Shown here in pieces: positions 7,755-28,993 of a DNA stretch of 33,006 nucleotides. The DNA is taken from the NCBI GenBank assembly GCA_030596605.1, contig JAUVJI010000036.1, forward strand, positions 1-33,006, written 5' to 3'. The notes below the pieces were generated by a model. It was not told where the DNA came from and ran no database searches. It was given only the letters and a program-made list of their open reading frames with translations. A program made the position numbers and the translations under genes. Within the stretch, counting starts at the first letter, position 1; each line of letters begins with the position of its first letter. This stretch comes from Bacteroidales bacterium. Its GTDB lineage: Bacteria; Bacteroidota; Bacteroidia; Bacteroidales; JAADJA01.

Positions 7755-7915
7755 GTGTTTTTTATTTCATGCAGAGGTGTGGGTTGGTTTCCGCAGAGTT
7801 TTTTGTTTCTCGCAAAGACGCAGAGGCGCAAAGGTGTGGGGTGTATTTGAAACAGCCCCTTCAACCTCACGTTCAACTCTTAGGTGCCTTTGCAAAGGCT
7901 TGTGGGTCGGTGCAC

Positions 7916-7969
7916 CGTGAGAGTCGTGGAATTAAAAGGGAATTCCCTAAGCTGTCCCCGACTCTCACG
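7916..7969. repeat. Inverted repeat CGTGAGAGTCG/CGACTCTCACG
   Basis: A perfect 11-bp inverted repeat (7916-7926 and 7959-7969) encloses 32 nt, which themselves contain the palindrome GGGAATTCCC. The right arm is part of the direct repeat that recurs at 8338-8412, where the core is written GGACTCTCGCG. The left arm is therefore an inverted partial copy of the same dispersed element. The structure resembles a REP-like hairpin unit. Confidence 0.6.
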
Positions 7970-8010
7970 TCGCTGCGCTCCTCAGAGATAAACGATTATT
8001 TTATTTTTTA
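7943..8010. repeat. Direct repeat, left copy, flanking the GIY-YIG gene
   Basis: This shares the order TTCC(C)TAAG.TGTCCC.GACTCTC.CGTC...TCCTCAGAGATAAACG followed by a T-rich tail with the right copy at 8338-8412. The two differ by scattered substitutions and by about 17-20 nt extra in the right copy. The GIY-YIG gene 8022-8324 occupies the space between them. The copies are in the same orientation, as expected for an element bounded by direct repeats or inserted into a repeat. Confidence 0.7.
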
Positions 8011-8021
8011 TGATTTAATAA

Positions 8022-8324
8022 TTATTCCCCATCAGGGATCTCATCATAAAGATCTTTCCAGGTGGGATTGAACTTATTTATTAATGCTATTTTCTTTGCT
8101 CGTTTCCAAGATTTAATTTGTTGTTCCCTGGCAATAGCTTCTTCGATTATAATAAATCCTTCGTAATAAACGTGTTTGTCAACATTGTAGTGGGCAGTAA
8201 ATGAATTCGGATATTCTTTGTATTTGTGTTGATAAATACGTGTTTTTAAAGCAGAGGTAGAACCCACATACAGCGTTGTGTTTTTTTTGGTTGTTGTTAT
8301 GTATGCATATCCTCCCCGTACCAT
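8022..8324 (-). CDS. Single-domain GIY-YIG nuclease-like protein
   Basis: This 100-residue protein matches the small GIY-YIG (UPF0213-like) family. It has YAYI at ~6-9 in place of GIY, LYVGST at ~18-23 for YIG, the conserved Arg in the ALKTRIYQHK helix, NSFTAHYNVDKHVYYE, and the catalytic Glu in AIAREQQIKSWKR; it ends in the usual NPTWKDLYDE. The family cuts DNA, but for these solitary proteins the role is unknown. The gene is not part of the sugar pathway. It stands between two direct repeats (7943-8010 and 8338-8412) and has a second relative at 26381-26665, also repeat-bounded. Start ATG at 8324. Confidence 0.88.
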   Translation of the reverse strand: MVRGGYAYITTTKKNTTLYVGSTSALKTRIYQHKYKEYPNSFTAHYNVDKHVYYEGFIIIEEAIAREQQIKSWKRAKKIALINKFNPTWKDLYDEIPDGE

Positions 8325-8337
8325 ATTGATTTAAATT

Positions 8338-8412
8338 TTCCTAAGTTGTCCCGGACTCTCGCGTCAGCTTACGCACAGGTCTACCCGATTTCCTCAGAGA
8401 TAAACGTTTTGT
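8338..8412. repeat. Direct repeat, right copy, flanking the GIY-YIG gene
   Basis: This is the partner of 7943-8010. It carries CTAAGTTGTCCCGGACTCTC and ends in TCCTCAGAGATAAACG, with an insertion of ~17-20 nt relative to the left copy. It sits immediately upstream of the GIY-YIG start codon on the minus strand and just past the stop of the GT4 gene 8446-9588. It may carry the promoter of the GIY-YIG gene. Confidence 0.7.
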
Positions 8413-8445
8413 TTTATTTGTTGGTTTTGTTTTGTCACAGTTGTC

Positions 8446-16073: not shown

Positions 16074-17186
16074 TTAACTCCAACTTTTTATTAGTTCACA
16101 GATTAAGTTTACTTCTTCTATTTCCAGTTCTGTATAAATTGGCAGGCAAATTACCTGTCGGGACTTAGTCAGTGCCACTTTCACATTCTCCTGAACGGAT
16201 GAAGCTAACTCATTATAAGGTGGAAACTCACTGATCAATGGATAGAAGTATCTTCTGCCATATATGTTTTTCTCCTGTAATTTCATATACAATGCATTAC
16301 GGCTTATCGAAAAGTTTTCATTTATAAAAACCGGGAAGTAGGCATAATTTTGCGCTACGCCATTCATGTTTTTCATCAGGTTAATTCCTTCTACATCACC
16401 GAGGAGTTTCCTGTATAGTTCTGAAATTTGTTTTCGCTTTTCAGTTTGTTCCTTAAACGACTTTAATTGTAACAAACCAAAAGCCGCCTGCAGTTCGTTC
16501 ATTTTAGCATTTATACCGGGGCCAACAACGATTGTCTCATCTTCAAAACCAAAATTCTTTAAATAATCGATTTGCTTTTTTGTCTCAGAATCATGACAAA
16601 CAATAGCCCCTCCTTCGATGGTGTTGAATGATTTGGTGGCGTGAAAACTTAATACAGAAAGATCCCCGAAATTTAAAATTGATTTGCCATCTTTTTCCAC
16701 TCCAAATGCATGTGCAGCATCATAGATCACTTTAAGGTCATGCTTATCAGCAATCGCCTGAATCTTTTCCACATCACACGGATTTCCGTACACATGTACC
16801 GGCATGATGGCGGTTGTTTGCGGGGTGATGGCTTGTTCAATTTTATCCGGATCCAAGTTACAGTAATTTGCCTCTATATCGGTAAATACCGGTTTGATGC
16901 CATTCCACCACAGGGCATGAGCAGTAGCTACAAAACTATAGGGAGTAGTAATTACTTCTCCTTTTATATCCAATGCCCGTAATGCGATCATTAGCGCAAG
17001 CGTACCGTTCGAGAACAAGGAAACATAGGGTACACCCAAAAAATTGGCTAAATCCTTTTCAAAGTGGGTATGAAAAGGCCCATTATTGGTAAGCCATTTG
17101 CTTTCCCAGATTTGTTCCAGTGATTTATTAAATTCTTCGAGGGAAGGCATATCCGATTGTGTAACAAATATTTTTTTCTTATCCAT
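16074..17186 (-). CDS. DegT/DnrJ/EryC1 aminotransferase, VioA-like (dTDP-4-keto-sugar 4-aminotransferase candidate)
   Basis: This 370-residue PLP enzyme has SNGTLAL (phosphate contact, ~59-65), VIYDAAHAFG with Asp156, and FHATKSFNTIEGG with the Schiff-base Lys185. The HATK.FNT.EGG signature is that of sugar 4-aminotransferases such as VioA, which make 4-amino-4,6-dideoxyglucose from dTDP-4-keto-6-deoxyglucose using glutamate. The assignment to VioA is from motif memory, not a search. It overlaps the upstream GT4 gene by 8 nt. The GNAT at 13132 could acetylate its product. RmlA/RmlB, which would make the substrate, are not in the window. Confidence 0.85.
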   Translation of the reverse strand: MDKKKIFVTQSDMPSLEEFNKSLEQIWESKWLTNNGPFHTHFEKDLANFLGVPYVSLFSNGTLALMIALRALDIKGEVITTPYSFVATAHALWWNGIKPVFTDIEANYCNLDPDKIEQAITPQTTAIMPVHVYGNPCDVEKIQAIADKHDLKVIYDAAHAFGVEKDGKSILNFGDLSVLSFHATKSFNTIEGGAIVCHDSETKKQIDYLKNFGFEDETIVVGPGINAKMNELQAAFGLLQLKSFKEQTEKRKQISELYRKLLGDVEGINLMKNMNGVAQNYAYFPVFINENFSISRNALYMKLQEKNIYGRRYFYPLISEFPPYNELASSVQENVKVALTKSRQVICLPIYTELEIEEVNLICELIKSWS

Positions 17187-18366
17187 AAAACCTGCTTATT
17201 TTGGCTTTAAAAGCTTCTGATCCGAATTTTTTAAGAACACTCTCCCTAATTTTAACCGGCTCAAATACAACTTCCTGATTATACACAGACAAGAGTGATT
17301 TGGCTAAGCCCTCTGCATCACCGATGGCGCATTTTATGCCATTCACTCCCGGCACATACATTTCGTCAAAACCTCCGCTGTTTGTCGAAACAACTGGTTT
17401 TCCACACATCATGGCTTCCCCGGTAACAACACCAAAGGTTTCTGCAATGCTTGTATTTAATAATATATCACAGTTTTTAAAATAAGCAGGAATCTCATCT
17501 CTTGATATATATGAATAAACCTTACAATGATCCCTATAAACTGAAGTTTCCACATAATCTTTAAGATATGTTTCACCCTCCTTACCCGTACCTATAATTT
17601 GAAAACAATAATTCTTACTTTTTATGAATTCTGAAAATAACATGATCGTTTTTACCAGGGTATTGTAGTCTTTATGATGCGCAAAACGACCTACGAAAAG
17701 AATTTTAAAAACATTCTTTTTATCGACTTTTTCTGCTGGAACATAGAGCTTTTCATCAATATAGTTTCCAACTACATGAATGTCCTCAACCAAATTTCTA
17801 TAACGTAATATCCTTTTCTGATACTCGCTTACAAGCAGAATATTATTAGCACTTTTAAGTGCGGTAATAAAATCATTTTGAATGTAATCGGGCTGATCGA
17901 ATAGCAAGTAATTGTGTTCAGTGATTATATAAGGGATACTCCATTTTTTATAAATCGAATGGGCCATTATGCCTCCGATGAAGGTGTCGTGTGCATGGAT
18001 CAGATCGGGTTTCCAGTTTGAAAGAATATAACTCTCAAAATAATCCAGGTAAGCTTTTATACTTAAGCTATAATTTGCGTTTTTATACTTATTTAATCCT
18101 TGTGTATAAGAAAAACTATAAACCCTTGGTGGGGCAAGAAAATAATCATCCTTTTTTTGTGTCCTTACTTTTTTAAGGAGAGTAAAACGGACTGTGTTTT
18201 TTATCTTTTTTACTCTGGATATGTCTGTGTTTAAATGCCCTGTAAAAATGCGTACATCAAACTCATCTTCAAACAAGGCAGCCTGCTCACGAAAAAATGT
18301 ACCTAAACCCGGATTTTCATTATTTGGGTACCAGGATGGGATGATGAGGATTTTTTTCTTTTTCAT
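17179..18366 (-). CDS. Glycosyltransferase family 4 (GT-B)
   Basis: This 395-residue intact GT4 opens with KKKKILIIPSWYPN, has DLIHAHDTFIGG at ~121-132, the donor-domain start KILFVGRFAHHKD (~221-233), GTGKEG (~259-264), and EX7E as Glu309/Glu317 in AETFGVVTGEAM. It adds one residue to the repeat unit by a retaining mechanism. Its N-terminal ~40 residues are the closest match in the window to the GT4 stump at 26687-26815 (shared WYPN, TFF..QA.LFE and the following D.R), so it is the best guide to what that broken gene encoded. It overlaps the VioA-like gene by 8 nt. Confidence 0.92.
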   Translation of the reverse strand: MKKKKILIIPSWYPNNENPGLGTFFREQAALFEDEFDVRIFTGHLNTDISRVKKIKNTVRFTLLKKVRTQKKDDYFLAPPRVYSFSYTQGLNKYKNANYSLSIKAYLDYFESYILSNWKPDLIHAHDTFIGGIMAHSIYKKWSIPYIITEHNYLLFDQPDYIQNDFITALKSANNILLVSEYQKRILRYRNLVEDIHVVGNYIDEKLYVPAEKVDKKNVFKILFVGRFAHHKDYNTLVKTIMLFSEFIKSKNYCFQIIGTGKEGETYLKDYVETSVYRDHCKVYSYISRDEIPAYFKNCDILLNTSIAETFGVVTGEAMMCGKPVVSTNSGGFDEMYVPGVNGIKCAIGDAEGLAKSLLSVYNQEVVFEPVKIRESVLKKFGSEAFKAKISRFYG

Positions 18367-24857: not shown

Positions 24858-26138
24858 TTATATTTTTTCTATCTCAACTGTTGTTTTAATCTTTGGCTTA
24901 ACAATACCCGGCGCACGTTTCATATTGCTACCTCTTCCGGTAAGCGTATTCTGTATTTCAAACGAAATAACTGCCTGAAAATGTGACAGTAAATGTTTTT
25001 GGCTTTCACCAATTACAATATCAATTTTATAATAGCCCGCATTGAGCAAATAAGCCGGAATTTCATAAGCTATATGATAAAGTGCTTTTTCTGAATCTCT
25101 ATTGGTACTTAGGAATGATCCTGCAGTAAAAACGATGATTTCATCACTTGTAAGCACATGGATTGAACAGTCAATGTTTTTGCTTTCCGTGTAATTTTCA
25201 ATTTCTAAAATGATTTTAAAATTGGTATCGGTATCAATATATTCTTTGCCAATGGGCTTAATCTCAATTCTTCTTAAGCGGACAGCATCATTTCCAGGTT
25301 TTTCCTGATCATCATGCCAAACTCTTTCCATACTGGTGATTTCATAATTTTTTCCATATAAATATTGTTTTACCGCATCTTTTTCATTTCCTATAAAATC
25401 AATCGTACCGTTCTTTAATACCATTCCTTTTGTACACAAGGATTTTACAGCTGTCATATTATGACTTACAAATAAAATGGTACGCCCTTTATTTTTAGAA
25501 ACATCCTGCATTTTACCTATTGCTTTTTTTTGGAATTCGGCATCACCCACTGCCAATACTTCGTCCACTACCAGAATCTCCGGTTCAAGATGAGCGGCTA
25601 CTGCAAATCCGAGGCGCACCATCATACCTGATGAATAACGTTTAACTGGTGTGTCAATATATCGTTCTACTCCCGCAAAATCTACAATCTCATCCAGTTT
25701 GCTTCGTATTTCGGCTTTAGTCATCCCCAGGATGGCACCGTTTAAAAAGATATTCTCCCTGCCGGTTAATTCACCGTGAAAGCCGGTACCTACTTCTAAA
25801 AGAGAGCCTATGCGGCCTTTATATTTTATACTACCGGTAGTGGGGCCTGTTACTTTGGAAAGTATTTTTAATAAGGTGCTTTTCCCTGCTCCGTTCTTAC
25901 CAATGATGCCCAGCACTTCCCCAGGCATTATTTCCAGATTGATGTCTTTTAATGCCCATACATAATTGGAGTCACTTTTTTGGTCGCTGATGTTGGATTC
26001 GCCAATTTTAAGATATGGATCTTCCTTTCCCCTTGTTTTATGCCACCATCGGTTGAGGTCGTGGGAGATGGTGCCGGTGCCTATCACGCCGAGGCGGTAC
26101 ATCTTGGAGAGGTTTTCTATTTTTATTATTGGGTTCAT
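24858..26138 (-). CDS. wzt: ABC transporter ATP-binding protein with C-terminal glycan-binding domain (Wzt-type)
   Basis: This 426-residue protein has an ABC ATPase at ~1-250 with Walker A GKNGAGKST (80-88), signature YSSGMMVRLGFA (168-179), Walker B EILVVDE (187-193) and the switch His in LFVSHNM. The C-terminal ~160 residues (~265-426) form a beta-rich Wzt_C-like domain, which in O9a/O8 systems recognises the modified end of the polymer. With a Wzm permease, not seen in this window, it would export an undecaprenyl-linked glycan. The ATPase is nearly the same as in the partial gene at 32261-33006 but the C-terminal domains differ. It is the first gene after the GIY-YIG repeat region, so a promoter probably lies there. 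Confidence 0.92.
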   Translation of the reverse strand: MNPIIKIENLSKMYRLGVIGTGTISHDLNRWWHKTRGKEDPYLKIGESNISDQKSDSNYVWALKDINLEIMPGEVLGIIGKNGAGKSTLLKILSKVTGPTTGSIKYKGRIGSLLEVGTGFHGELTGRENIFLNGAILGMTKAEIRSKLDEIVDFAGVERYIDTPVKRYSSGMMVRLGFAVAAHLEPEILVVDEVLAVGDAEFQKKAIGKMQDVSKNKGRTILFVSHNMTAVKSLCTKGMVLKNGTIDFIGNEKDAVKQYLYGKNYEITSMERVWHDDQEKPGNDAVRLRRIEIKPIGKEYIDTDTNFKIILEIENYTESKNIDCSIHVLTSDEIIVFTAGSFLSTNRDSEKALYHIAYEIPAYLLNAGYYKIDIVIGESQKHLLSHFQAVISFEIQNTLTGRGSNMKRAPGIVKPKIKTTVEIEKI

Positions 26139-26213
26139 GTTTTTGTATTCAAATGCAGATTAGTTGTTCAAGTTTGCCGCGGCTGTCGTGTTTCATAAAC
26201 GAAGCAACGGTGG

Positions 26214-26227
26214 TTGTTCAAGTTTGC
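26214..26227. repeat. Direct repeat TTGTTCAAGTTTGC, left side of GIY-YIG element
   Basis: This 14-mer recurs at 26164-26177 (identical) and at 26683-26696 (13 of 14, A for G at the third base). The last copy is on the far side of the GIY-YIG gene and lies at the end of the broken GT4 frame. The pair therefore brackets the GIY-YIG unit in the same orientation, as target-site or terminal direct repeats would. Confidence 0.65.
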
Positions 26228-26254
26228 TTCGGCCTCCTCCGTCGGCCTCGCAAA
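26223..26254. repeat. Dispersed palindromic element, inverted copy 1
   Basis: Reverse-complemented, it starts TTTGCGAGG and ends GGCCGAAGCAAA. The same ends occur on the plus strand at 26324-26361 with a different interior. The pair is inverted, with 69 nt between them, on the 3' side of the GIY-YIG gene. Confidence 0.65.
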
Positions 26255-26323
26255 GTACGTATTTCATAGGTTTGTTTTGATGTAGATTGATTTTCCCTGC
26301 TAATCATGTTATGGAACACGTGA

Positions 26324-26361
26324 TTTGCGAGGGAGCCTCATTTTCGAGGTGACCGAAGCAA
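26324..26361. repeat. Dispersed palindromic element, inverted copy 2
   Basis: The element runs from TTTGCGAGG to CCGAAGCAA, with an inner CCTC/GAGG stem (AGCCTCATTTTCGAGGTGA). It ends 19 nt short of the GIY-YIG stop codon. Together with 26223-26254 it could form a long stem with imperfect arms. Confidence 0.65.
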
Positions 26362-26380
26362 TCTTGTTCAATGCCAGAGC

Positions 26381-26665
26381 CTATAAGTCGTCATACAGAT
26401 CCCTCCATTCAGAGTTCATCTCTTCAATCAATTTTATCTTTTTTGCCCGGGAACCTGCTTTGATTTGTTTTTCGCGGGCACGGGCTTCTGTAACCGTGTC
26501 AAACTCTTCATACCACACCAGTTTGTCGAGGTTGTATTTTGCACTGAAGGAGTTTTTGTATTTTTTTGTCTTGTGACTCTGTGTGCGGTATTTCAGTTCT
26601 GTTGTCTGTCCTATGTAAATAGTCCCATGTGGTTTGTTAGTTGTCATGTATGTCCAGGCTTTCAT
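26381..26665 (-). CDS. Single-domain GIY-YIG nuclease-like protein
   Basis: This 94-residue relative of the protein at 8022-8324 has WTYMTT and IYIGQT for the GIY and YIG strands, the Arg-bearing segment TELKYRTQSHK, FSAKYNLDKLVWYEE, the catalytic Glu in ARAREKQIKAGSRAKK, and the ending SEWRDLYDDL. It lies between repeats (26214-26227 and 26683-26696) and directly next to a truncated GT4 gene, which suggests that this unit or its repeats caused the break. Its own product is not a sugar enzyme. The two GIY-YIG proteins are clearly homologous but far from identical, so they did not arise by recent copying of each other. Confidence 0.87.
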   Translation of the reverse strand: MKAWTYMTTNKPHGTIYIGQTTELKYRTQSHKTKKYKNSFSAKYNLDKLVWYEEFDTVTEARAREKQIKAGSRAKKIKLIEEMNSEWRDLYDDL

Positions 26666-26682
26666 AGGTATATACGGGTATG

Positions 26683-26696
26683 TTATTCAAGTTTGC
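26683..26696. repeat. Direct repeat TTATTCAAGTTTGC, right side of GIY-YIG element
   Basis: This matches TTGTTCAAGTTTGC at 26214-26227 in 13 of 14 positions. It overlaps the final codons of the GT4 stump (stop at 26687-26689), so it marks the junction between GT4 sequence and the GIY-YIG unit to within a few bases. Confidence 0.65.
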
Positions 26697-26815
26697 CAGA
26701 TAAAATGTCTGGCATCATAATCCTTTTCAAACAGGGTTGCTTGGTCATGAAAAAAAGTATCTAACCAAGAATTTAATTTATTCGGATACCAGAAAGGGAT
26801 GATGATTTTTTTCAT
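26687..26815 (-). pseudogene. Truncated glycosyltransferase family 4 gene (N-terminal stump)
   Basis: Reading the minus strand from ATG at 26815 gives a 42-residue frame beginning MKKIIIPFWYPNKLNS, then TFFHDQATLFEKDYDARHF, and ending IWQT followed by TGA. It aligns with the first ~41 residues of the intact GT4 at 17179-18366 (KKKKILIIPSWYPN, TFFREQAALFEDEFDVRIF). The ATG overlaps the upstream GT2 stop as ATGA, the normal spacing in this operon. Homology stops at ~26700, where the repeat and GIY-YIG unit begin, and no trace of the remaining ~350 codons is found up to wzt. It is a dead remnant, not a small gene. Confidence 0.85.
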
Positions 26816-27891
26816 GAATTGAATTTCAATTTTTCTTTTAAATATCCTTTTTGTATTATGCTTTTCTTAATCCTGTTTGTATTTGCCCTTATCATCCTAA
26901 TGACAGGAGTTTCTTTGTCTACTAAATAAATATGATTTAATAAAGGTAGTTTTTTTTGAAAATAATATTGGATTTTTAAAAGGGTTAATGCATACGTTTT
27001 ATTTATCTCTTGTAACATATGCATATTAAGTATCGCATAATTATCTGCCAGCATATTATGCGAATATGTTAATAGCCAGGCTATTGTTTTTTTATTGTGT
27101 TTTAAAAAGTGCTTTACGATTAAAGGGGATAATTTGTTCTGGTTGATTAATAATGTAACTATCTTATATTGCGCGGTATAAGCAGATATTAATCTGTCGT
27201 ATTCCCCGCTCTTATATTTATAAGATATGCTACCCTTATGCTGGCGGTAAAAAGCATACGGCTTGTTAATAATGCTTGTTTTTATATCATTTTTGATATG
27301 GAGTCTGCTGAAAAATTCAAACTCCTGTGCTCTTGTCAAACTTTCATCCCAAATTTCCTGTGTGTTCTTTAAAAACCGTGCGTCAAGCATAATGCTGCCT
27401 GGGTATAACGCAGTTTGATAGGTAATAACATCCTCATATAATTTATGACTATGGTTCAATTTTGTAATGAAAGTTATATTTTCTAAACTACCAACAAAGA
27501 AAGCCACCTGACTTATAACACTTTTTAGCTCTTTATTTTTATTAAAAGTTTCAATTTTATCAATTAGTAATTCGGGGTGCATCACATCATCCGAATCGAA
27601 CCATTGGATATAATCCCCTTTAGCTAATTCAAAACCATAATTCCTGGCCCCGTTGCCTCCCGGTTTGTGTGTATTTGGTTTGTCCACCAAGATAAATCGG
27701 GGGTCTTTGTCCACATACTTTTGTACTACCTCTTTGGTGTTATCTGCAGAACCGTCATCCACTACAATACATTCCCAAATTTGATAACTTTGTGCTAATA
27801 AAGAATCAAGGGTTTCGCTGATCAAGCCAGCTCGGTTGCGGGTGGGGATGATGATCGAAACTAAGGGTTTATCCATTGACAGATTTCTCAA
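26812..27891 (-). CDS. Glycosyltransferase family 2 (GT-A)
   Basis: This 359-residue GT2 has VSIIIPTRNRAGL, CIVVDDGSADNT, GARNYGFELAKGDYIQWFDSDD (split around Ala-Lys) as nucleotide and DXD regions, and a basic C-terminal tail. The frame opens with ATG at 27891, overlapping the GT4 gene by 23 nt. A second ATG at 27876 (MDKPLVSIIIP) overlaps by only 8 nt, the spacing usual here, and gives a more typical GT2 N-terminus; I slightly favour it. It precedes the broken GT4, so in the ancestor the two were translationally coupled. The sugar is unknown. Confidence 0.9.
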   Translation of the reverse strand: MRNLSMDKPLVSIIIPTRNRAGLISETLDSLLAQSYQIWECIVVDDGSADNTKEVVQKYVDKDPRFILVDKPNTHKPGGNGARNYGFELAKGDYIQWFDSDDVMHPELLIDKIETFNKNKELKSVISQVAFFVGSLENITFITKLNHSHKLYEDVITYQTALYPGSIMLDARFLKNTQEIWDESLTRAQEFEFFSRLHIKNDIKTSIINKPYAFYRQHKGSISYKYKSGEYDRLISAYTAQYKIVTLLINQNKLSPLIVKHFLKHNKKTIAWLLTYSHNMLADNYAILNMHMLQEINKTYALTLLKIQYYFQKKLPLLNHIYLVDKETPVIRMIRANTNRIKKSIIQKGYLKEKLKFNS

Positions 27892-28993
27892 TAATCTCGT
27901 TTAACTTGCTGATATGTTTTTCCATCGAGAAGTTTTCTTTGATGTTTTTTCTTCCGGCTTCACCCATCTGTATAGCTTGATCTGGATTTTCAATAATCCA
28001 TAGCATGTGTTCAGCCATTTTATTAAAATCATGCTCTTCACAAAGCATCCCTGTTTTTTCATGTATAATAATATCGGGAATGCCAGCATGAAAAGTTGAA
28101 ATTACCGGAACTGCAGCTGCGCTGGCTTCCATAATGCCAACCGGTGTCCCTTCCATATCACCATCTCGCGCTTTTATGGAGTGCTGAATAAAAGCCGTTG
28201 CTTTACTCAAATACTTGCGTACCTCAACTGGTGTTAAAATACCGGGAAACTTAACATTATCTTCAATTCCTAAATATTTTGATAAGTTTATGGATGATTC
28301 TAGTAAATGGCCTTCACCACCTAAAGCAAGCTGGGCATTAGGATATTTTTTTAATACATTACTAAATGCAATTAAAGTATAATAAGGAGCCTTTTTATCA
28401 ACAAATCTACCTACACCAAAAAATAATGGTAACTCACTTTTATTTTTCTTTATTTCAAAGAAAGCGTCATTAGGGCCATATGTATTGTATATGAGTTTGT
28501 TCTCTGTTACACCAAGTGTTTTCAACCTCTCCATCATTACCTGCGAAACGCCAATGATATACCTGGCTGTGGAAAACATGTGCCTGTATTTCTGCTTATT
28601 GTGTTCCAAAACATCATGCATAGAAGCGTCATATCCATGAAAATGAACAATTAAGGGTGTTTTTAACTGGTCGCAAACATCATATATCTGTGCTCCTGTT
28701 GTGCCGTATTCGGCAAGCACGCATTGAATTTTGTGTTTCTTGAGGTATCGTTTCAGCGCAAACTGAGGTTTATTTAATCCGGAATGATAGAGTTTATACT
28801 CGATGTTAAAAAGGATCTTATTAAAAAGATGGGCCGGTGGAATAAGCTGTTTTGTATAATCAGATTTATAAGGGATGGAACTTCCGTACAAATAATGAAC
28901 AGTTCCTTTCAGCAGGTTTTTATGGGCCTGAATGAAAGTTTCGGAATAAGCGTTTTTTGAAGGAGAAATAACAGCGATGGCAGCAGTTTTCAT
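27869..28993 (-). CDS. Glycosyltransferase family 4 (WcaL/colanic-acid-type)
   Basis: This 374-residue GT4 has IAVISPSKNAYSETFIQAH at the start, VHFHGYDAS (~116-124) in the acceptor domain, FFGVGRFVDKKAPYY (~191-205), GGEGHLL (~225-231) and EX7E as Glu281/Glu289 in MEGTPVGIMEAS. The HFHGYD and EGTP.GIMEA signatures fit the colanic-acid-type branch of GT4, which often adds galactose or glucose to branched exopolysaccharides. It follows a 61-bp AT-rich gap after the next GT2 and overlaps the GT2 downstream. Intact; substrate inferred only loosely. Confidence 0.9.
   Translation of the reverse strand: MKTAAIAVISPSKNAYSETFIQAHKNLLKGTVHYLYGSSIPYKSDYTKQLIPPAHLFNKILFNIEYKLYHSGLNKPQFALKRYLKKHKIQCVLAEYGTTGAQIYDVCDQLKTPLIVHFHGYDASMHDVLEHNKQKYRHMFSTARYIIGVSQVMMERLKTLGVTENKLIYNTYGPNDAFFEIKKNKSELPLFFGVGRFVDKKAPYYTLIAFSNVLKKYPNAQLALGGEGHLLESSINLSKYLGIEDNVKFPGILTPVEVRKYLSKATAFIQHSIKARDGDMEGTPVGIMEASAAAVPVISTFHAGIPDIIIHEKTGMLCEEHDFNKMAEHMLWIIENPDQAIQMGEAGRKNIKENFSMEKHISKLNEIIEKSVNG

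Follow-up and report, generated by a model that had tools for sequence, protein, structure and literature searches.

In the current study, we characterized a small gene for a GIY-YIG nuclease that adjoins a broken glycosyltransferase gene in a 33,006-nucleotide stretch of Bacteroidales DNA (hereafter the window). The gene is probably the sole gene of a small mobile unit flanked by REPs, whose nuclease would move both the unit and gene-less REP doublets, and the unit in the window appears to have decayed. A broader reading, towards which we lean only slightly, is that small GIY-YIG nucleases supply the mobilising enzyme so far missing for CGTC-type REPs, which make up one of the two great REP superfamilies. 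They would constitute a second REPtron, with an unrelated nuclease at its core and present in 17 named phyla, whose clades co-evolved with their own palindromes and shed the gene-less doublets that constitute the bulk of the repeats. If true, this would be a REP-moving system independent of RAYTs, and it would provide a role for many genes annotated just as "GIY-YIG nuclease family protein". In the window, the unit may explain how a glycosyltransferase gene within a polysaccharide-type locus came to be broken, by a putative order of events. The features of the locus, together with an intact glycosyltransferase frame used as a yardstick, are:

24858-26138, minus strand: ABC transporter ATPase gene (PF00005), which we take from its setting to be Wzt-like
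26163-26177, minus strand: tail-only REP-B' copy (GCAAACTTGAACAAC) ahead of the ABC ATPase gene, from the repeat search
26213-26260, minus strand: second REP-B' copy (ACGTACTTTGCGAGG..CCGAAGCAAACTTGAACAAC), with a TTTGC/GCAAA stem as beside relatives in L223, L266 and L267
26318-26371, plus strand: REP-B' copy nearest the nuclease gene on its downstream side (ACGTGATTTGCGAGG..CCGAAGCAATCTTGTTCAA), head directed away from the gene
26381-26665, minus strand: GIY-YIG nuclease gene, 94 aa, frame intact, almost domain only (PF01541, E 2.7e-13)
26682-26696, minus strand: tail-only REP-B' copy (GCAAACTTGAATAAC) fused to the GT4 stump, which is the break, from the repeat search
26687-26815, minus strand: GT4 N-terminal stump of 42 codons, from its own frame and its likeness to the intact 395-aa frame
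26812-27891, minus strand: GT2 glycosyltransferase gene, with an ATGA overlap with the GT4 stump
17179-18366, minus strand: intact 395-aa glycosyltransferase frame whose N-terminus matches the stump, the yardstick for the GT4 loss

The minus-strand order is GT2, the 42-codon GT4 start, the 94-aa GIY-YIG gene and the ABC ATPase gene. A sequence-only reading of the window had described a GT4 start coupled by ATGA to the GT2 gene and broken at the end of a repeat beside the GIY-YIG gene, and both observations held. Residues 2-38 of the stump are 57% identical to the N-terminus of the 395-aa frame (E 5e-13, in one pairwise comparison), and a search of the same genome with the stump gave 55% identity over residues 2-39 (E 1.3e-9); Pfam returned no family match for the 42-residue stump alone. 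The GT4 homology ends at residue 38-39, and the final stump codons, TGG CAA ACT TGA, continue into the repeat, the codons past the homology being GCAAACTTGAA. Judged by the 395-aa relative, about 350 GT4 codons would have been lost. Comparison of window DNA 25900-27900 with its own genome and 98 relatives gave only partial matches in the relatives, none spanning the junction, and no intact sister allele of the GT4 locus was found among the 98 relatives. In the same comparison, the stump protein had two matches apart from itself: the GT4 of the window and, among the relatives, one gene in another family. The earlier suggestion that the event altered a surface antigen found no support; a further GT4 frame is intact within the same locus.

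The repeat was also said to occur once on each side of the GIY-YIG gene. It is present on both sides, in three direct copies (26163, 26213 and 26682) rather than two: GCAAACTTGAACAAC, read on the minus strand, matches perfectly at 26163-26177 and 26213-26227 and with one mismatch at 26682-26696, with no further copy in the window when up to two mismatches were allowed. A longer palindromic unit, ACGTACTTTGCGAGGCC..GGCCGAAGCAAACTTGAACAAC, has the middle copy as its tail, and the facing unit at 26318-26371 sits between this copy and the GIY-YIG gene; an inverted arm at 26346-26371 pairs with 26214-26239 (81% over 26 nt). The 242 nt between the nuclease and ABC genes had a DNA fold z of -4.96, which 0 of 200 shuffles equalled; an 11-base core by itself is weak, with three matches at up to one mismatch in the window and at least three in 10 of 100 shuffles. 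The upstream and outermost REP-B' copies are tails only, both starting at the same REP base, a weak hint of a preferred breakpoint. The CGTC head and 8-9 bp stem of CGTC REPs are lacking in these repeats, which have the heads ACGTAC and ACGTGA and a 5-bp stem, TTTGC/GCAAA or TTTGC/GCAAT, and which are tied to REP-B solely via their apparent likeness to L223, L266 and L267. Relatives in three other families (G068, G091 and G066) adjoin REPs with the stem TTTGC/GCAAA, not ATTGC/GCAAT, a change on both stem sides that is common to them and the window. In G091 the relative's gene lies between genes that we take to be cysD and cysN, and in G066 a second GIY-YIG gene has entered the first. In L267 (1399-2060), a tRNA-type GIY-YIG gene is apparently inserted in a REP-B'-type GIY-YIG gene. 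The window's own genome contains nine exact REP-B cores, and CGAAGCAAACT four times, once within a recognised REP; cores being so few, the window unit may be dead.

The 94-aa nuclease consists largely of its PF01541 domain (residues 3-77), and a separate DNA-binding domain such as that of I-TevI is absent from it. No tyrosine transposase was found by Pfam in the window unit, where the GIY-YIG domain was the only one detected. In alignment A1 the columns of R28, H32, E65 and N84 are invariant, and R28, E65 and N84 are the Arg, Glu and Asn of GIY-YIG homing endonucleases, whose catalytic residues were assigned after the consulted part of PMC2988022. The nearest solved sequences are the UPF0213 proteins 1zg2 and 1ywl (E 1.6e-7 and 1.6e-4). 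A PHROG homing-endonuclease match was obtained for the first GIY-YIG gene of the window (E 4.5e-7) and none for the second. The existence of this second gene contradicts the earlier description of the first as solitary, as do the 1 to 17 PF01541 matches per genome in 17 genomes of the genus (its own included), among which are UvrC-like and other long proteins. The second unit comprises:

8022-8324, minus strand: second GIY-YIG gene (PF01541), 53% identical to the first over residues 4-94
7901-8016, no strand assigned: downstream repeat and palindrome of the second gene (GACTCTCACG arms), unrelated in sequence to REP-B', fold z -4.81
8336-8428, no strand assigned: upstream direct copy of the second gene's repeat, from repeat comparison

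A REP-B label had been given to the second gene from one-mismatch matches; it is unsafe because the flanking repeat is another sequence. A CGCAAAGACGCAGAGGCGCAAAGG-type sequence lies near the second unit, at 7810-7845.

Flanking repeats are common around such genes in the genus. Our survey parsed 73 places, mostly short genes, of which we kept the 62 whose flanks both exceeded 150 bp and dropped 11. In 41 of the 62, a direct repeat between the flanks reached z above 4 relative to 30 base-shuffled copies, tandem gene copies included. By eye, the repeats differ with the kind of nuclease: REP-B (CGTCATTGCGAG..GAAGCAATC) surrounds relatives of the window's genes, REP-C (GTCATCCTGAG..) surrounds other nucleases, and tRNA or tmRNA pieces are a third kind.

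The ends of the unit could be read where one genome holds several copies. Two copies in G261 lie 4.2 kb from each other and are 88% alike across an alignment of 557 columns; the likeness starts at CGTCATTGCGAGG and stops in CCTCGCA(A)TGACGG, and the sequences beyond are unrelated. Further copy pairs, some with other repeat sequences, are bounded in or at repeats in G214, G299, G215 and G217. Terminal inverted repeats, a trait of insertion sequences, are present at the ends of the G261, G299 and G215 copies; no target-site duplication was evident by eye in those of G261. The same genome contains 223 exact REP-B cores. Among the first 100 of these, neighbours within 400 bp comprised 30 heads-out, 2 same-way and 0 heads-in pairs, and 28 of the 30 heads-out pairs were spaced by 139-238 bp, so that the paired units of CGTC REPs recur in REP-B within that part of the 223. 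When 20 stretches selected as heads-out pairs were compared with the unit, all 20 matched its ends and none matched its gene. From their sequence, these doublets look like gene-less derivatives of the unit.

To look beyond the order, ten proteins of the genus were used in one scan of a collection holding one genome per species, and the best 80 loci were kept. These loci were chosen by likeness to a protein with REP-like flanks, and the REP-A clade is therefore over-represented among them. When no motif was preset, the 8-mers over-represented close to the gene spelled GTCATTCCCGCGAAAGCGGGAATCCAG, and GTCATTCC occurred near 57 of the 80 genes, compared with 13 of 80 for distant sequence of nearly three times the length. 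Four CGTC-headed REP cores were then searched with up to one mismatch, near being within 300 bp of the gene and far beyond 600 bp. A core lay near the gene in 67 of the 80 loci and on both sides in 45. Core density was 3.97 per kb near (183 matches in 46,061 bp) and 0.195 per kb far (25 in 128,367 bp); in intergenic DNA only, as defined by a crude gene model, it was 6.7 vs. 0.60 per kb (124 in 18,443 bp and 7 in 11,737 bp). In a 30-locus set a core was near in 25 of 31 rows, one row being a spurious second row. Of the best 80 loci, 10 have no phylum and the others fall into 18 named phyla, and at least one locus with a core was found in 17 of the 18, many of the genomes being metagenome bins, where contigs can be misplaced. 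The 13 loci without a nearby core were 10 of the 34 in Pseudomonadota, 2 of the 8 in Bacteroidota and the sole Melainabacteria locus.

A hairpin test without a fixed stem, which demanded a GTCA[TC] head, a perfect stem of at least 7 bp, a short loop and a CC tail, gave 123 hairpins near and 8 far, a 43-fold enrichment. REP-A has these traits of CGTC REPs around many of the 80 loci, with at least one hairpin within 300 bp in 56 and on both sides in 38. The near hairpins have 18 stem starts, one of which accounts for 79 of the 123. GTCA heads numbered 152 near and 11 far, and six other heads 0-5 near and 0-3 far. The nearest cores pointed heads-out (+,-) in 32 of the 80 loci and heads-in (-,+) in 6; they were otherwise arranged or one-sided in 29 and absent in 13.

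CGTC REPs occur in several phyla, and in 2013 neither a dedicated transposase nor a transposase gene flanked by CGTC units had been reported for them, according to the sections of PMC3733652 drawn on here. As far as those sections go, this superfamily and REP-A share the GTCA[TC] head, a stem starting AT or AC and a CC tail, and the present REPs also resemble it in their heads-out pairs and their occurrence in several phyla. Unlike the CGTC REPs described there, those studied here enclose a GIY-YIG gene; compared with the families in the same sections, REP-B has a shorter stem and a longer loop, and the REP-B' of the window lacks the CGTC head. The units also resemble RAYT/TnpA-REP with its GTAG REPs (REPtron, REPIN; in part after PMC3733652), in that one small gene for a DNA-cutting enzyme lies inside its own REPs and that gene-less doublets occur elsewhere in the genome. 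In contrast to RAYT/TnpA-REP, the enzyme is a GIY-YIG protein (PF01541) and not a tyrosine transposase, and the REPs are CGTC-headed. Within the largely open-access journal literature searched, and mostly among the papers listed, nothing linked GIY-YIG to REPs in bacteria. GIY-YIG and RAYT stand in separate rows of a gene table, with no link made, in the consulted part of PMC9465073, and a word search found GIY absent from a 2025 survey of REPs (PMC12306157) and from PMC6006769. PMC10928387 was dropped as a candidate link, "rayt" being an author name in the portion concerned. A 95-aa nuclease beside CGTC REPs, with clades that match the repeat and units that end at repeats, makes the question of a dedicated enzyme directly testable.

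Correspondence between nuclease and repeat was examined in a tree of 83 rows with a labelled repeat (label score of 2 or more; two spellings are pooled in A and likewise in B). On this tree the label changes seven times, as against a shuffled mean of 25.4, and 0 of 200 shuffles were as low. The clustering is carried by A and B; REP-C, with 4 changes on 5 rows against a shuffled mean of 4.9, does not clearly contribute, and REP-D has no part in it. In a tree of 31 A and B rows picked to mix hosts, one label change suffices (support 94/87, from few columns and a bootstrap that had not settled). Here A rows named as Bacteroidota, Pseudomonadota and Chloroflexota group with two A rows of the window's order (L233 and L243), separate from the order's B rows and one KSB1 B row. 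The second gene of the window, with its unsafe label, is a row in both trees. A gene flanked by its own REP family with an enzyme clade matching the REP class, a trait of RAYTs and REPtrons, is seen for A and B and not clearly for C and D. Across the order, 32 of 295 genomes (its own included) have at least five REP-B cores; an A1 match at E 1e-12 was found in 26 of these 32 and in 74 of the 263 others (Fisher 7.5e-9, uncorrected for kinship). Among 20 genera mixed for a strong match (E 1e-30), 12 were for the association, 2 against and 6 tied (p 0.0065). Counts of REP-A over the same 295 genomes were low in the order, at 13 or fewer.

Comparison shows that, in the better kept relatives, the gene stands inside an inverted pair of CGTC-headed REPs, each single or doubled, whose heads point outward and which form the unit ends, and that the two well-sampled nuclease clades each have a REP family of their own. 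Most probably the nuclease recognises its cognate REP and cuts there, and cutting would move the whole unit, or a gene-less REP doublet in trans, to new and mostly intergenic places. The association of REP and nuclease could also be seen if REPs were simply places where the gene settles. REP doublets would then be moved by something else, and the GIY-YIG gene would be a free-standing homing gene that uses them as safe, repeated landing sites, with the REPs as target and not cargo; we consider this unlikely, with several observations on its side. Free-standing GIY-YIG homing genes occupy intergenic regions of T4, and the T4 Seg enzymes, in the part of PMC2988022 consulted, likewise have a small intergenic gene and the conserved Arg, Glu and Asn. 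By comparison with Seg, the present proteins of 94-100 aa are almost catalytic domain only, are enclosed by paired palindromes and occur in several copies per chromosome. In many loci the gene sits inside a heads-out pair, as homing into doublets would have it, and other GIY-YIG clades of the genus lie just behind tRNA genes, as expected for site-specific homing. Six REP-B-rich genomes (G015, G025, G082, G153, G256 and G277) have no detected A1 partner, two of them with more than 100 cores (109 in G082 and 101 in G277). The change of REP family with nuclease clade argues against homing into REPs, as does the full arm on each side of the gene in G261.

Presence and absence of a unit could be compared at one site in Azospirillum. 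In A. lipoferum 4B (L279), sufB and sufC are separated by a GIY-YIG gene that has a REP doublet on either side. In A. ramasamyi, A. oryzae, strain B510 and A. thermophilum, the sufB-sufC gap is 55-129 bp and has no gene inside, and an unannotated stretch of A. brasilense aligns like these empty relatives. The next-ranked 11 Azospirillum records (H48-H58), five of which were fetched, showed 69-71% query cover in two pieces, approximately the share of the two genes. No hairpin with a 7-bp stem was found in the gap of A. ramasamyi, A. oryzae or A. thermophilum, three of the four annotated empty relatives, and that of B510 has a palindrome of another sequence; since the gap evolves fast, the exact junction is blurred. 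A REPtron-like system is favoured over homing by the empty sites that have no REP and by the full repeats to either side of the gene, whereas the B510 palindrome and the partner-less REP-rich genomes leave room for homing into REP doublets. Two other candidate empty sites were dropped: G298 and G115 for the G214 unit, where the flanks failed to align across the site, and Sinorhizobium K101 for the unit of S. meliloti Ak57, K101 also having a GIY-YIG gene there. In a Shinella plasmid (L295), the sufB-sufC gap that is occupied in A. lipoferum likewise contains a GIY-YIG gene, with another CGTC repeat, which represents either an independent arrival or a shared favourite site. In Sinorhizobium L284 and L294, the gene lies between hflX and mazG and is flanked by the palindromic repeat CTCATCCCTGTGCTCGTCACAGGGAT...

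These distributions also bear on a reading in which selection, not mobility, keeps REP hairpins as terminators or insulators beside a small host repair nuclease gene. The downstream palindromes could terminate transcription, and the nearest solved relatives are hypothetical UPF0213 proteins. Such a role is hard to reconcile with several unit copies at different places per genome that end at repeats, with a patchy distribution (A1 matches at E 1e-12 in 100 of 295 genomes; absence from the Azospirillum relatives) or with enrichment of the GTCA head and not of a hairpin alone. This reading is disfavoured and, in our view, very improbable.

Under the mobile-unit reading, the unit in the window is a decayed one: two REP-B' copies are present downstream of the gene and, upstream, just one REP tail, fused to GT4 codon 39. 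In the simplest order of events, the unit was already in or behind GT4 when a deletion running from within GT4 into the stem of the upstream REP would have taken away the REP head together with about 350 codons, presumably through breakage and repair at that REP. The sequence-only reading had made the GIY-YIG unit the cause of the break, by insertion with deletion. A causal part for the unit agrees with the coincidence of the break with the unit's repeat and with the apparent mobility of such units elsewhere; insertion with deletion is possible, the remaining upstream tail fitting it as well as it fits a later deletion with one end inside the REP. For the window alone, it is also conceivable, if doubtful, that the GT4 loss is unrelated to the unit, the polysaccharide locus having been shuffled and the junction having come to lie beside the unit by chance or by REP-tail recombination. 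Polysaccharide loci recombine often, and the window contains three direct tail copies. Relatives of the unit stand beside polysaccharide-type genes, presumably a wzm-like gene after the relative in G068 and a UpxY-like gene in G066, so the unit may travel with such genes. Shuffling of the locus does not readily explain why GT4 homology stops at the repeat within one or two codons, and recombination between two tails alone would not place GT4 sequence next to a tail.

Another feature of the genus is a second, tRNA-linked kind of GIY-YIG gene. A tRNA or tmRNA gene is present in 37 of the 60 genus loci L076-L135; 46 of the 47 GIY-YIG genes in the tRNA/tmRNA loci share the strand of the RNA, and 24 of the 47 lie 29-54 bp past its 3′ end. 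Kinship among these nucleases tracks tRNA identity, with 12 changes for 10 identities, where shuffles averaged 24.2 and none of 200 was as low. In L106, L111, L103 and L124, a partial tRNA copy was seen by eye downstream of the gene, with part of an arm swapped for a short palindrome, e.g., TCCCGACAATCCTTGTCGGGA. Tandem arrays of GIY-YIG units were observed in L113, L118, L134, L104, L265 and L251, some consisting of a full copy followed by a copy cut in mid-gene.
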